From Gallionella sp. (lineage in GTDB: Bacteria > Pseudomonadota > Gammaproteobacteria > Burkholderiales > Gallionellaceae): 64,000 nucleotides of DNA. Shown in pieces: positions 2,439 to 57,927 of the stretch. Both the position numbers and the translations under genes were made by a program. The stretch is from the NCBI GenBank assembly GCA_028707275.1, contig JAQTUP010000006.1, positions 62,001 to 126,000 of the forward strand, read 5' to 3'. The notes beneath the pieces are model-generated. The model was not told the DNA's origin. It searched no databases and was given only the letters and a program-made list of their open reading frames with translations. The stretch's first letter is position 1; every line of letters begins with the position of its first letter.

Positions 2439-4484
2439 TCAGAAAATCCCTGAGTTGCCAGCAGTCAGAAGTGGGACAATCATGAGAGCCACGATGTTGA
2501 TGATCTTGATCAGCGGGTTGATGGCAGGGCCTGCGGTGTCTTTATAAGGATCGCCCACCGTGTCTCCCGTGACGGCGGCTTTGTGCGCCTCCGAGCCTTT
2601 GCCGCCGTAGTTTCCTTCCTCGATGTATTTTTTTGCATTGTCCCAGGCACCACCGCCGGTGGTCATCGAGATCGCGACGAAGATGCCGGTGATGATGGTG
2701 CCGACCAGTACTCCGCCTAACGCCTGTGCGCCCAGCGTCAGCCCCACGACGACAGGAATGAAGACCGGCAGCAAGGACGGGATCAGCATTTCGCGGATGG
2801 CGGCTTTTGTCAGCATATCCACGCAGGTGCCGTATTCCGGCTTGCCCGTGCCCTCCATAATGCCTGGGATTTCCCTGAACTGGCGGCGTACTTCGACGAC
2901 GACAGCGCCCGCAGCACGGCCGACCGCTTCCATGCCCATCGCGGCGAACAGGTAGGGAATCATGCCGCCTATAAATAAGCCGACAATGACCATGTGATCG
3001 GACAAGTCAAACAGCATGCGGGCATGGAAGTGGGCTTCGAGCGCGTGGGTGTAGTCGGCGAAGAGCACCAGGGCTGCGAGTCCTGCGGAGCCGATAGCAT
3101 AGCCTTTGGTGACAGCCTTGGTGGTGTTGCCCACCGCATCCAGTGCATCGGTGACGACACGCACCTCATCGGGCAGACGAGCCATTTCGGCAATGCCGCC
3201 GGCGTTGTCGGTAATGGGCCCATAGGCGTCCAGCGCCACGATGATGCCGGTCATCGACAGCATGGACGTGGCGGCGATGGCGATGCCGTACAGGCCCGCC
3301 ATCGCATAAGCGCCCATGATCGCAAGACACACGACCAGTACGGGGGCAGCGGTCGATTTCATCGAGACGCCGAGGCCTGCGATGATGTTGGTGCCGTGTC
3401 CCGTGGTTGACGCCTGGGCGATGTGGCGCACCGGCGCATACTCCGTGGCGGTATAGTATTCGGTGATCCACACCAGGGCTGCGGTCAGCAACAGGCCGAT
3501 GACGGTCGCGCCGTACAGAGCGCCTACGCTGTACAACCCGTTATCTTTCATGATCCAGTCGGTTAACGGGTAGAAGGCGATCAGGGCCAGGGCTGCGGAA
3601 ACAGCCAGTCCCCTGTACAACGCATTCATGATTTTTCCCCCCGGGCGCGCCTTGACGAAGAAGGTGCCGACAATCGAGGCGATGATGGAAAAACCGCCCA
3701 GTACCAGCGGATAAATGATGGCGTTCGTCCCCGCATTCGCCATCAGCAAACCGCCCAGCATCATGGTGGCGATGATGGTCACGGCATAAGTTTCGAACAA
3801 ATCAGCCGCCATCCCGGCACAGTCGCCGACATTGTCGCCGACATTGTCGGCAATGACCGCAGGATTGCGCGGATCGTCTTCGGGTATGCCCGCCTCGATT
3901 TTCCCCACCAGGTCGGCGCCGACATCTGCGCCTTTGGTAAAAATACCGCCGCCCAATCTTGCGAAGATTGAAATCAACGATCCGCCGAATCCCAGTCCTA
4001 CCAGGGCATGGGTCGCCTCGGCAGGCGCGGCGCCGATCCGGGTCAAAAAGGCATAGTAGCCGGCCACGCCGAGCAAGCCTAAACCCACGACCAGCATGCC
4101 CGTGATGGCGCCGCCCTTGAATGAAACGTCCAGCGCAGCGTTGAGGCCTTGTCTGGCTGCCTCCGCCGTGCGGATGTTGGCGCGCACCGACACGTTCATG
4201 CCGATGAATCCGGCAGCACCCGAGAGCAGGGCCCCGATGGCAAATCCGCTGGCGGTTTGCCAGCCTAAGGCTGTGAAGATGGTGATGAACAATATGACGC
4301 CGACTATGGCGATGGTCTGATATTGCCGTTTAAGATAGGCGGTAGCGCCTTCCTGGATTGCCGCTGCGATTTCCCGCATTCGTTCACTGCCGGTCGGGAG
4401 ATTCAGAATCCATTTGATTGAAAACAGGCCATACAAGATTGCAACGATGGCGCACAACAGAGCAAAGTCCAGACCAGCTGACAT
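2439..4484 (-). CDS. hppA: K+-independent H+-translocating membrane pyrophosphatase
   Basis: Inner-membrane pump that couples hydrolysis of pyrophosphate to proton export. 681 residues, the normal length, with about 16 hydrophobic segments. The catalytic loop has [20 protein letters not shown] (about 187-206) and [19 protein letters not shown] (about 213-231). The cation-selectivity site reads [10 protein letters not shown], with Lys456 and Thr459. In this family Lys and Thr at these places mark the K+-independent H+ pumps; K+-dependent forms have Ala and Gly. The ATG is preceded by AGGGAG. First gene of a two-gene unit with glgP. Confidence 0.97.
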
Positions 4485-20248: not shown

Positions 20249-20333
20249 CCCCTCTCCCGCTGGCGGGAGAGGGGCAGGGAGAGGGGCTAAAGATTCCACC
20301 CCCACCCCGGTTCTCCCCCTTCCAGGGGGAGGG
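20249..20333. repeat. GC-rich palindromic repeat between the two arnA halves
   Basis: CCCCTCTCCCGC-TG-GCGGGAGAGGGG (20249-20274) is a near-perfect hairpin. A second stem of the same family follows (CTCCCCCTTCCAGGGGGAG, about 20313-20331). Non-coding spacer. Confidence 0.85.
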
Positions 20334-54300: not shown

Positions 54301-55596
54301 TTAAAGACTGAAGCCTTTGCTCAGCAACTCCGCACAGCGCAAGCCGCTTTGCACGGCGCCTTCGAGGGTGGCCGGATAGTCGCCTTTTGTGTAATCGCCC
54401 GCCAGCAGCAGGCGGGGCAGGGGTGTTTGCTGGTCGGGACGAGACAGGTCGGGCGTGCAGGCGAAGGTGGCGCGTTTTTCCGCGATCACCTTGTGCCACA
54501 GGGGATTTTCGGTGATGCCGAACTCTTCGCGCAATTCCGCGATGACCTTTTGTGCGAGTTCCGCCTGCGATAATTCCTGATGGATGCCTTCTGCGCTGAT
54601 GACCGAGGCGATCAGGCCGTGTTGTCCTGCGATCTGTCCCTTGTCGAACAGCCACTGGCTTAAGCGCTGATGCAGACCCAGCATCGGATGGGGCAGGGTG
54701 ACGCCCGCCGGGTATTGGATATACAGGGTGTAAATAGGCTGATGTTGCAGGGCGTCTATTTGGGTGACGACAGAAGATAGCCCGGCAATCGGCCTGATGA
54801 GCCGGGCGGTGGCGACCGGCGGCGTGGCGCAGATGACGTGGCTGAAGTACATGCGTCCGCGTTTGGTCGTGATCTCCACGCCGCTTTCATCTGGATGTAA
54901 ACTTTCCACGCCGCATGAAGTCAGTATGTGCCCGCCGCGTTTTTTGACATAGTTCGCGGCGCGCGCCGGAAACAGTGCGGTAAAGTCCATCTTCGGTATC
55001 AGCATATCGCTGTCGGCGCGCGTCTGATTGAGCGCATCCCTCAGCACGTTCAGCAGTATCTGTGCGGAGGCGATCGCAACCGGCGTGTTCAGCGCCGCGA
55101 TACACAGCGGTTCCCAGAGTTTTTGTATCAGGGTGTCGTTTTGCCCGTACTGTCTGAGCAGTGCTGACGCCGTGATGTCTGCGCTGATGCGAAAATTCAT
55201 TTTTCGCAGGGTGAGCATGAAACGCGCGGCGCTGATGCGCTCCCCCCAGCTCAGCCCGTGCGCGCGCAGCAACGCGACTAAAAGGTGCAGCGGGGCGGGC
55301 AGATTGGGCGCTCTGAGTGAAAACTGGCCATGCAGATCGAGCTGCAAGGGCAGGCGCAGAAAATCGCTTTCGATATGGCCGCCGACCAGCTCGATCAGCT
55401 TCAGGGTGTCGCGATAACAGCCCAGCAGCAGATGCTGGCCGTTATCAAGTTGCGTGTGCTGCTGTGTCACGCCGCGCGCACGTCCGCCCAGTTGTCCTGC
55501 GCTTTCAAACAAGGTGACGGCAATACCCCGTTCGGCGAGAGAGGCGGCCGCTGCCATGCCCGCGTAGCCGCCGCCGATAATGGCAGGGTTTATCAA
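54301..55596 (-). CDS. hpnE: Hydroxysqualene dehydroxylase
   Basis: 431-residue FAD amine-oxidoreductase-like enzyme that reduces hydroxysqualene to squalene in the hopanoid path. FAD site AIIGGGYAGMAAAASLAERG (about 5-24), NGQHLLLGCY (about 52-61), and late LLLAGDYTKGDYPATLEGA (about 404-422). Third enzyme after HpnC and HpnD; here separated from hpnD by a DUF559 gene and repeats. Confidence 0.93.
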   Translation of the reverse strand: MINPAIIGGGYAGMAAAASLAERGIAVTLFESAGQLGGRARGVTQQHTQLDNGQHLLLGCYRDTLKLIELVGGHIESDFLRLPLQLDLHGQFSLRAPNLPAPLHLLVALLRAHGLSWGERISAARFMLTLRKMNFRISADITASALLRQYGQNDTLIQKLWEPLCIAALNTPVAIASAQILLNVLRDALNQTRADSDMLIPKMDFTALFPARAANYVKKRGGHILTSCGVESLHPDESGVEITTKRGRMYFSHVICATPPVATARLIRPIAGLSSVVTQIDALQHQPIYTLYIQYPAGVTLPHPMLGLHQRLSQWLFDKGQIAGQHGLIASVISAEGIHQELSQAELAQKVIAELREEFGITENPLWHKVIAEKRATFACTPDLSRPDQQTPLPRLLLAGDYTKGDYPATLEGAVQSGLRCAELLSKGFSL

Positions 55597-55630
55597 TTGT
55601 TTTTCTCGCAGGAGAAAAATAACGATTGTA

Positions 55631-55866
55631 CCCTCTCCCTCTGGCGGGAGAGGGTTAGGGAGAGGGCTATAACGAGCATTAGTTTTTGATTGTTTTTCAT
55701 TGGGTCAGTGAAGTTTTTACCCCTACCCTGACCCTCCCCCTGAAAGGGGGAGGGATAAGGATGTGGCAGTTAGCGCGCTCCCTCCCCCCATAAGAGGGAG
55801 GGGGTATAAGTTTTGCAAGTTGAACATACCTTCCCCATTTCAGGGGGAAGGTCAGGATGGGGGTGC
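55631..55866. repeat. Cluster of GC-rich palindromic repeats
   Basis: Hairpins CCCTCTCCCTCTGGCGGGAG (55631-55650), CCCTCCCCCTGAAAGGGGG (about 55732-55750), CTCCCTCCCCCCATAAGAGG (about 55780-55799), and CCTTCCCCATTTCAGGGGG (about 55830-55848). Non-coding. Confidence 0.85.
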
Positions 55867-56217
55867 AAGTTTTAATGATTCCGTTATTCGCGTCAATACG
55901 CCTTCCAGATTGTTTAAAACATCGTTATTCCAAAAGCGCAGAACCTGCCAGCCTTGTGTTGCCATAAAATCGCTGCGAAATTCGTCATATCCCGTTTGCT
56001 CCTGATGTTGCCCTCCATCCAGTTCAATCACCAGCTTTTGTTCGATGCAGGCGAAATCGGCAATATATCGCCCGATGGGGTGTTGACGACGGAAGCGATG
56101 GCCGTTCAGTTGCTTGTAACGCAGCGCATGCCATAATTTTCTTTCGGCATCGCTCATGTTCGTCCGAAGCGATCGGGCTCTCAGGGTGGTTTCAGGATTG
56201 TTCCTGTGGGAAGTCAT
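55852..56217 (-). CDS. DUF559 endonuclease-fold protein
   Basis: 121 residues from ATG at 56217: ETTLRARSLRTNMSDAERKL, HRFRRQHPIGRYIADFACIE, LVIELDGGQHQ and VLRFWNNDVLNNLEGVL. This is the Vsr-like PD-(D/E)XK DUF559 family. Its ribosome site and its 3' end come from flanking palindromic repeats. It splits the hpn operon. Function unknown; a nuclease role is likely from the fold. Confidence 0.87.
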   Translation of the reverse strand: MTSHRNNPETTLRARSLRTNMSDAERKLWHALRYKQLNGHRFRRQHPIGRYIADFACIEQKLVIELDGGQHQEQTGYDEFRSDFMATQGWQVLRFWNNDVLNNLEGVLTRITESLKLAPPS

Positions 56218-56228
56218 TAAATATTTAC

Positions 56229-56262
56229 CCCCATCCTGGCCTTCCCCCTGACAGGAGGAAGG
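56229..56262. repeat. Palindromic repeat upstream of the DUF559 gene
   Basis: CCCCATCCTGGCCTTCCCCC facing TGACAGGAGGAAGG. Inverted relative to CCTTCCCC...GGTCAGGATGGGGG at 55830-55863, so the gene is bracketed by copies in opposite orientation. Confidence 0.7.
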
Positions 56263-56273
56263 AACATGCTGTG

Positions 56274-57107
56274 TTAGTTCCTGATCCAGGTTGTCCAGGC
56301 CAGCCATAATTTGCGCAAGGGGGTCAGCGAGACGCGCTCTTTGAGTACGTGGCAGCCCGAAGCTTGTACTTCATCCAGTGTGGCGCGATAGATCGCCGCC
56401 ATGATGAGTCCTGTGCGCTGGGTTTTTTTGTCTGCGTCCGGCAGTTGTGCCAGAGCTTGCTGATAAAAGCGTTGTGCGCGCTCGATCTGGAACGCCATCA
56501 GTTTGTGGAAGTTTTCAGTTTCATTCGCATTGAGAATATCGGCAGCCGTCACGCCGAACTGTTTCATCTCGTCCATCGGCAGATAGATGCGGTTGCGCCT
56601 GGCATCTTCACCTACATCGCGGATGATGTTGGTGAGCTGCAACGCGATGCCCAGATCGTGCGCGTATTTGAGGGTCTGCCGGTCTTTATAGCCGAAAATT
56701 TCGACCGAAAGCAGGCCGACTACCGAGGCGACCCGATAGCAATACAGTTGCAGCGACTTGAAATCCGCATAGCGCGGCTGATCCAGATCCATCTCCATGC
56801 CGTCGATGATTTCCAGCAGATGTTCCTGCGCCATGTTGAACTGCACAACGACGGGCACCAGCGCCTGCGCCACCGGATGTTGCGGATGCCCGCTGTAGAT
56901 CAGCGCTACCTGTTCACGCCACCAGGCCAAGGTGGTGCGCGCCACCTGTTCGTCGGTACACTCGTCGACGACATCGTCCACTTCGCGGCAAAAAGCGTAC
57001 AGCGCGGTGATCGCGCGGCGCTTTTCTCTGGGCAAAAACAGGAAGCTGTAGTAAAAACTGGAGCCGCTGGCAGCAGCCTTGTCCTGGCAATATTGGTCTG
57101 GAGTCAT
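56274..57107 (-). CDS. hpnD: Presqualene diphosphate synthase
   Basis: 277 residues. Condenses two farnesyl diphosphates. First Asp-rich motif FCREVDDVVDEC (about 39-50), second DVGEDARRNRIYLP (about 163-176). It follows hpnC by four bases. The next enzyme in order, HpnE, lies beyond a DUF559 gene. Confidence 0.95.
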   Translation of the reverse strand: MTPDQYCQDKAAASGSSFYYSFLFLPREKRRAITALYAFCREVDDVVDECTDEQVARTTLAWWREQVALIYSGHPQHPVAQALVPVVVQFNMAQEHLLEIIDGMEMDLDQPRYADFKSLQLYCYRVASVVGLLSVEIFGYKDRQTLKYAHDLGIALQLTNIIRDVGEDARRNRIYLPMDEMKQFGVTAADILNANETENFHKLMAFQIERAQRFYQQALAQLPDADKKTQRTGLIMAAIYRATLDEVQASGCHVLKERVSLTPLRKLWLAWTTWIRN

Positions 57108-57111
57108 AATT

Positions 57112-57927
57112 TCAATAAGTGTGGGGTGCAGATTTTGCCAGCATGATAACCCAGTCGAGGGGGCCCAGCACCGGGCGGCGGCGGAATACGTCGTAATCGG
57201 CCGCTTCGATCTTGGCGAGGATGCGCAGGCCGCCGGCGATAATCATGCGCATCTCAAGGCCGATGCGGCCGGTGAGGATGCTGCCCAGTGGCGCGCCCTG
57301 CAACATCAGCGCGCGAGCGCGATCCACCTGAAACTTCATCAGACGCCGCCAGTTCTCGTCGCAGATTTGCTGCTCAATCTGGCTCTCCGGGACGTTATAC
57401 CGCGCCATTTCATCCAGCGGCAGATAGACGCGGGAAATCTTCCAGTCTTTTGCGACATCCTGCCAGAAATTGATCAGCTGCAAGCTGGTGCAGATCGCAT
57501 CCGAATACGCCAGATTGACCGGCGTGGCCTCGCCGTACAGATGCAGCAGCAGGCAGCCGACAGGGTTGGCCGAGCGTCGGCAGTATTCGAGCAGATCGGT
57601 GTAATTGTCGTAACGCTTTTTGACCACATCCTGCGAGAAGGCATCGAGCAGATCGAAAAGCGGCGGCAAGGGCAGTGCGTATTGCCTGATTTCCGCCGCC
57701 AGATTGCGGAACAAGGGCGTTGTCGGCGTTTCATTCAAACGGATGCGGTCGAGTTCGGCGCGAAAAGCATCCAGCTGTTGCAGGCGTTCGTGGTCGGGCA
57801 GATCGCCTTCGTCCGCGATGTCGTCTGCCGCACGGGCAAAATGATAGATGGCGGCTACGGGTTTACGCAGCCGTTTGGGCATCAGGACCGAGGCGACGGG
57901 GAAGTTTTCGTAATGATCGACCGACAT
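57112..57927 (-). CDS. hpnC: Hydroxysqualene synthase
   Basis: 271 residues of the squalene/phytoene synthase fold. NFPVASVLMPKRLRKPVAAI (about 8-27), ARAADDIADEGD (about 31-42) and DVAKDWKISRVYLPLDE (about 151-167). Converts presqualene diphosphate to hydroxysqualene. Heads the hpnC-hpnD pair; squalene cyclase is not in the window. Confidence 0.94.
   Translation of the reverse strand: MSVDHYENFPVASVLMPKRLRKPVAAIYHFARAADDIADEGDLPDHERLQQLDAFRAELDRIRLNETPTTPLFRNLAAEIRQYALPLPPLFDLLDAFSQDVVKKRYDNYTDLLEYCRRSANPVGCLLLHLYGEATPVNLAYSDAICTSLQLINFWQDVAKDWKISRVYLPLDEMARYNVPESQIEQQICDENWRRLMKFQVDRARALMLQGAPLGSILTGRIGLEMRMIIAGGLRILAKIEAADYDVFRRRPVLGPLDWVIMLAKSAPHTY

Follow-up and report, generated by a model that had tools for sequence, protein, structure and literature searches.

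The window, i.e., the whole 64,000-nucleotide stretch of DNA analysed here, carries on its minus strand three squalene (hpn) genes whose profile matches (TIGR03464, TIGR03465 and TIGR03467) all exceed the NCBIfam cut-offs, and a small DUF559 gene stands among them, giving the operon order hpnC-hpnD-[DUF559]-hpnE. A preliminary description of this DNA had placed a DUF559 gene between hpnD and hpnE, and this is borne out by the match of its product to the corresponding Pfam family (PF04480, 143.8 bits, E 2.3e-42) and by those of both neighbours. The features of the locus are:

54301..55596, minus strand: hpnE, downstream neighbour of the DUF559 gene (TIGR03467, 461.1 bits)
55829..55864, plus strand: repeat at the 3' end of the unit, hairpin 55829-55851 outermost, G-rich box 55855-55864 on the inner side
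55852..56217, minus strand: DUF559 gene (PF04480), 121 amino acids, ATG at 56217, stop codon at 55852-55854
56227..56262, minus strand: repeat at the 5' end of the unit, hairpin 56240-56262 outermost, G-rich box 56227-56236 on the inner side
56274..57107, minus strand: hpnD, upstream neighbour of the DUF559 gene (TIGR03465, 398.5 bits)
57112-57927, minus strand: hpnC (TIGR03464)

The same repeat had been described on both sides of the gene in opposite orientation, and the two 36-bp ends (55829-55864 and 56227-56262) are indeed inverted with respect to each other and 89% complementary. Each end consists of an outer hairpin followed, after a few bases, by a gene-facing G-rich box, GGATGGGGGT. 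The claim that the repeats provide the ribosome site and the 3' end of the gene holds as well: the 3' repeat contains the stop codon (plus-strand TCA) in the loop that separates its hairpin from its box, and the box of the 5' repeat, GGATGGGGG, lies immediately upstream of the ATG, where this purine-rich element can serve as the DUF559 ribosome site. Folding as DNA yields -7.8 kcal/mol (z -2.1) for the 3'-end repeat, and the corresponding values for the 5'-end repeat are -8.2 kcal/mol and z -1.7. An Rfam search of 55500-56400 returned no match.

The layout of these ends is that of the PIT or TM_ECO repeats, with the published motif 5'-CCCTCNCCC N3-6 GGGNGAGGG N3 GGGNGAGGG (Holder et al. 2015, PMC4666352). 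TM_ECO forms an intrastrand triplex in vitro, and 3,610 PIT/TM_ECO copies have been reported in 262 proteobacterial genomes without an assigned function, enzyme or link to mobile elements (PMC4666352). The ends of the hpn unit are of the CCTTCCCCC/GGATGGGGG type, which shares the TM_ECO layout but not the TM_ECO pattern. The pattern itself is matched twice in the window, compared with zero matches expected, and the repeats of our type A are, on the strength of this pattern, the TM_ECO/PIT motif, the G-rich box being its putative third strand. Besides Holder et al., Hoyne and Maher are cited for these intrastrand-triplex repeats. A stem mismatch was considered as a universal mark of the hairpins and rejected: a G-A mismatch is present in 11 of the 13 relevant type A hairpins here, and the stems are mostly perfect in other genomes. 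On the hpnE side of the DUF559 unit the window holds further members of the class, all three within the interval 55631-56262 of the preliminary description:

55631..55666, plus strand: further repeat with the exact TM_ECO/PIT pattern, i.e., hairpin, TTA and third strand
55719..55754, minus strand: further repeat, hairpin 55732-55754 preceded by a C-rich box at 55719-55729
55780..55802, unstranded: additional hairpin belonging to this repeat class, external to the unit and without a box

Another TM_ECO-type repeat is found at 20250-20285 of the window, with a loop that is off by one or so bases, and no DUF559 gene was seen near it.

In the 3.17-Mb genome to which the window belongs, that of a genus in or close to the Gallionellaceae, the stem pattern CCCTCNCCC-N3..12-GGGNGAGGG occurs at 51 sites, as opposed to none for the reversed control, and chance is therefore excluded as an explanation for the flanking repeats. 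A hairpin scan covering 1.25 Mb (1.19 Mb of this genome plus the window) identified 43 hairpins of the class, among them two inward-facing pairs 250-700 bp apart, both of which enclose DUF559 genes; the remaining inward-facing pairs are four short gene-less doublets. No gene other than DUF559 is bracketed by such repeats in the 1.25 Mb, and solo and doublet copies stand at unrelated genes. The genome contains three full DUF559 genes. The second (L001), whose neighbours are lolD-like and permease genes, is bounded by two 24-nt ends of 100% complementarity, 364 nt apart, with an end loop, GTTTAC, that is absent from all other listed copies of the pattern in the genome. At the third (L003), a clear repeat is present on the 3' side only, and beside this gene (G000 C12:493047-495000, the upstream part of L003) runs a near-tandem series of decayed palindrome copies.

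The preliminary description had called for the flanks of DUF559 genes to be scored across proteobacteria, and flanking palindromes recur in the genomes sampled. Our flank test compares the 250 bases before the DUF559 domain with the 250 bases after it and records the highest-scoring inverted match, a score of at least 14 counting as a pass, and the controls are the identical test at other positions of the same loci. Matched terminal inverted repeats were present at 66 of 100 DUF559 loci (10 of 1429 controls) and at 62 of 77 DUF559 genes in named genomes (0 of 278 controls); in a stepwise sample of 39 genes, drawn at steps below the top 30 ranks of a phylum search and not picked by score, 32 had matched ends (1 of 80 controls). 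Controls thus pass at about 0-1%, and the flanking-repeat observation is confirmed as real and general. The first condition that the preliminary description had named for its refutation, a lack of such flanks at other DUF559 genes, did not apply. None of 26 true Vsr genes passed the same test; Y1_Tnp genes, included as a positive control, passed in 2 of 23 cases and make a weak one because the set is mixed with ordinary IS200. Matched ends were found in alpha-, beta-, gamma- and deltaproteobacteria, Chloroflexota, Nitrospirota and Poribacteria, and also on plasmids of one cyanobacterium (Pseudanabaena) and of two Deinococcus, Cyanobacteria and Deinococcus having been sampled through plasmid loci. 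They were not found in two Bacillota plasmids, N. gonorrhoeae and two Synechocystis plasmids. Terminal palindromes are likewise absent from a separate DUF559 clade of the same genus with longer reading frames (L053, L054, L056, L059, L060, L062 and L064-L066), which is possibly a domesticated branch or one with a different function.

Of the ends to which a box could be assigned, 120 have it directed toward the gene and 17 away from it (p 3e-20). Many units, mostly alphaproteobacterial, have a second hairpin between stem and box, whose stem sequence differs between the two ends of one unit; both nevertheless fold, which suggests that conservation applies to the shape.

DUF559 is a large family that still bears the name of a domain of unknown function. 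It has been termed EDxHD (PMC9403480), and the residues E25, D54, E65, D67, H71 and D78 are invariant in 51 DUF559 sequences, with E25, D54, H71 and D78 invariant also in a set of 22. An AlphaFold model of the window protein (pLDDT 85.8) matches 3hrl, the I-Bth0305I domain 3r3p (TM 0.75 by target length) and, weakly, Vsr; by predicted fold and residues, the protein is an EDxHD/Vsr-fold nuclease. PF03852 (Vsr) is not among its Pfam matches, nor did we find a Vsr match in its own genome. A comparison with known defence proteins (PADLOC) gave no match, and NCBIfam gave a weak match, far below the cut-off, to the nuclease stretch of antiphage_ProA. Segments with a transposase and DUF559 have been described as recombination hotspots in Legionella (PMC12308824).

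The gene and its palindromes had been proposed to form a mobile unit, and this is supported by alignments within unrelated flanks: alignments of 440-450 bp that span the hpn unit from one hairpin to the other and stop there were obtained with a unit between modA-like and modB-like genes (L122) and, to the same extent, with a unit beside a coq7-like gene (L118). Operons without the gene, which were to be sought, were found, so that the second condition named for refutation, presence of the gene here in every relative, did not apply either. Among the hpnD-hpnE junctions readable in relatives, eight are gapless or overlapping, six contain a single repeat, one contains an inverted repeat pair without a gene and three, that of the own genome included, contain the DUF559 unit, the remainder being other spacers. 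Units occur at the same position in several species, so that movement would be slow and not frequent. No target-site duplication is evident at the palindrome ends.

Several loci show additional arrangements. On plasmids of two Deinococcus species (L351 and L352), units occupy neighbouring junctions of the same hpa gene cluster and are oriented opposite to the surrounding genes. At L037, L074, L076 and L078 (in G016, G040 and G042) the DUF559 palindrome unit is nested in classical inverted repeats, GGGTGCATTYGAAARTGGTGGAC, and these GGGTGCATTYGAAARTGGTGGAC-bounded units are 92-94% identical amid different surroundings, as if a MITE carried the whole unit; duplications of ~9 bp surround the outer repeats at L076 and L078 and, less clearly, at L074. 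In two further genomes (L020 in G050 and L026 in G045), the sequence preceding the unit is similar to the beginning of the permease gene behind it, as though part of the target gene had undergone duplication around the unit.

Two or three DUF559 lineages may share one genome, each with its own repeat type, and a single genome-wide repeat common to all was accordingly rejected. On a tree of 171 DUF559 domains the repeat types require 26 changes, compared with 55.3 after shuffling, and 0 of 200 shuffles were as low. A comparison of partners within genomes gave 20 of 22, a figure that is biased by its restriction to loci with matched ends. Type E repeats occur in 5 of 101 relatives, four of which hold the type-E DUF559 clade, the fifth having one stray copy; in G087, the repeat pointed to a flanked DUF559 gene, which later turned out to share 85% identity with a type-E member at the protein level. 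Type C repeats reach at least 10 copies in 7 of 9 genomes with the type-C DUF559 clade, as opposed to 1 of 52 without it. Among genomes of at least 95% completeness, those with DUF559 have 18.1 repeats per Mb and those lacking it 0.8 (p 5e-5), and the density increases with the number of DUF559 genes (rho 0.78, p 2e-7); all these association tests are uncorrected for kinship of the genomes. The whole genome G074 has 58 A/B-type and 21 C-type repeats and no DUF559 match.

Comparison of sequences establishes the unit with its polarity and its presence at more than one site, together with the type specificity and the copy-number correlation, and the DUF559 gene and its repeats almost certainly form one evolutionary unit. 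In the explanation that we favour, and consider quite probable as a whole, the gene and its two palindromes would constitute a mobile element of ~430 bp with the layout hairpin, G-rich third strand, nuclease gene, third strand', hairpin', each DUF559 lineage having its own repeat type. The nuclease would recognise the hairpin, or the hairpin with the third strand, of its own repeat class when the repeat is extruded or single-stranded, e.g., at the replication fork, and would nick or cut at the folded repeat, and repair of the break would place a copy of the unit, or of a gene-less doublet, at another intergenic location. Single and paired repeats elsewhere probably represent non-autonomous forms related to the ends, much like REPs and REPINs in relation to RAYT genes. 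The copy-number correlation, the type specificity and the fixed polarity lend indirect support to the nuclease as the agent that spreads the repeats, a step we regard as moderately probable; any exact version of the chemistry of DUF559 action is put forward with low confidence. Against the explanation stand repeats without the gene (G074 and O157:H7 E. coli), DUF559 lineages without ends, the one-sided repeat of the third DUF559 gene of this genome, the outward box at some loci, the positions that units share in several species, the lack of a definable target-site duplication and correlations uncorrected for phylogeny.

The main rival is homing, in which the nuclease would cut an existing solo or paired repeat and repair would insert the gene, the repeats themselves being spread by something else, such as slippage or another enzyme. 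This has in its favour that the fold and residues are those of EDxHD homing endonucleases, that empty, solo, doublet and full states are all represented at the hpnD-hpnE junction in relatives, and that genomes with repeats but without DUF559 exist. Homing alone, however, leaves unexplained both the rise of copy number with DUF559 number and the near-absence of type-E repeats where the type-E gene is absent, and it would not require the inward polarity, which is fixed here. We consider it unlikely as the entire explanation; homing into existing repeats may be part of the same process as the spreading of repeats.

That DUF559 is an ordinary nuclease of the repair or restriction type, gathered together with the repeats in insertion-tolerant intergenic spots or surrounded by repeats that a RAYT or another transposase moved, appears improbable. 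Caulobacter VsrA, a DUF559 protein, is tied to DNA damage in cells without a cytosine methyltransferase (PMC12907096), and REPs are linked to RAYTs elsewhere; against this, same-locus controls and Vsr genes lack such flanks, several DUF559 lineages per genome each have their own repeat type, and no other gene is bracketed in 1.25 Mb. A RAYT as the mover was rejected: the sole Y1_Tnp gene of the genome lies elsewhere, with no such repeat within 8 kb.

A slightly less probable reading takes the palindromes as operator or transcript-control sites of the nuclease, i.e., for self-regulation, termination or mRNA protection, with the dispersed copies as regulated sites or decoys. Their overlap with the ribosome site and the stop codon and their good folding would suit such a role, which does not account for the inversion at both ends, the solo and doublet copies at unrelated genes or the relocation of whole units; moreover, according to the passage in PMC4666352 that cites earlier work, PIT/TM motifs are without promoter or terminator activity. 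Least probable is that the unit is a MITE-like passenger of conventional transposases acting in trans, as the units inside GGGTGCATTYGAAARTGGTGGAC repeats (L037, L074, L076 and L078), at least two of them with ~9-bp duplications, might indicate, for this outer repeat was seen in one lineage only and other units end at their own repeats.

The proposal of a mobile element that spreads its repeats through its own nuclease extends to E. coli, in which the DUF559 gene is ycjD, flanked by sapF and fabI in 3,334-3,366 of 5,426 genomes (~62%), K-12 included. A worn TM_ECO copy is located at the 3' end of ycjD and a complete copy ~190 bp further downstream, and E. coli genomes contain between 1 and 34 TM_ECO copies. 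O157:H7 has ~15 copies, and ycjD is missing at the sapF-fabI site in the one strain read. A clean empty site in E. coli was sought and rejected: ycjD-negative strains carry a different operon between the neighbours. In K-12 (L399; L356 1473-1620), a second copy of the final ~40 bp of ycjD lies downstream of the worn TM_ECO copy, and in strain 167 (L403) the 106 bp between the two copies of the ycjD end have been lost by direct-repeat deletion. Just upstream of ycjD (L356 1138-1181) there is a hairpin with a ~20-bp stem (CACCTCATTCTGACAAAAGAT...CTTGTCAGAATGAGGTG) that is unlike the usual repeats and may be a terminator or an operator.

The PIT/TM_ECO repeats number in the thousands across hundreds of genomes, including that of E. 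coli K-12, and had been assigned no enzyme, function or origin, and a search of open-licence PubMed Central found no paper tying DUF559 to palindromes or to PIT/TM_ECO. From the sequence comparisons presented here, a DUF559 enzyme probably spreads this widespread class of bacterial repeats, whose origin was never explained. The broadest form of the proposal, for and against which we see equal weight, is that of a mobile class in several phyla in which a lone EDxHD nuclease would recognise ends folded as hairpins or triplexes, would copy its own unit and thousands of gene-less repeats, and would be the missing PIT/TM_ECO enzyme, YcjD included. If true, this would constitute a route of repeat spreading that uses a nuclease instead of a transposase. 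The link assigns a testable role to both the nuclease family and the repeats, and ycjD with its adjoining TM_ECO repeats makes it testable in K-12.

Among known systems, the REP/RAYT REPtron has in common with the DUF559 unit one small gene bracketed by inverted palindromes (PMC3116915, PMC2817692, PMC3733652), and REP/REPIN-RAYT systems share the dispersed copies, both single and paired, which track the enzyme in number and type, G074 and O157:H7 being the exceptions here. The REPtron enzyme, however, is an HUH tyrosine transposase (PF01797), whereas the gene bracketed here encodes a PF04480 protein of predicted EDxHD/Vsr fold. The REP tag GTAG or CGTC is not conserved at the DUF559-unit ends read across loci, and, unlike in REP, a spacer of 2-5 nt separates the hairpin from the G-rich box, the putative third strand. 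With PIT/TM_ECO, type A repeats share the published pattern, and inverted pairs have been reported there too (PMC4666352); types B, C, D and E diverge in sequence.

The EDxHD homing endonuclease I-Bth0305I (3r3p) shares the fold and the invariant acidic and histidine residues, but the DUF559 unit is a free-standing gene with folded inverted ends and no intron or intein. Vsr and Caulobacter VsrA have a related nuclease fold, and Vsr genes lack the flanks. MITEs and IS elements share inverted ends and gene-less short versions; in the DUF559 unit, by contrast, the ends are themselves hairpins, no target duplication was found and there is no transposase. We know of no element class that joins a lone EDxHD nuclease to folded ends. 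The DUF559 unit is not itself a REPtron, as both the enzyme and the tag that define one are lacking; its best reading by analogy is that of a unit that would work like a REPtron, with an EDxHD/Vsr-fold nuclease in place of the transposase.
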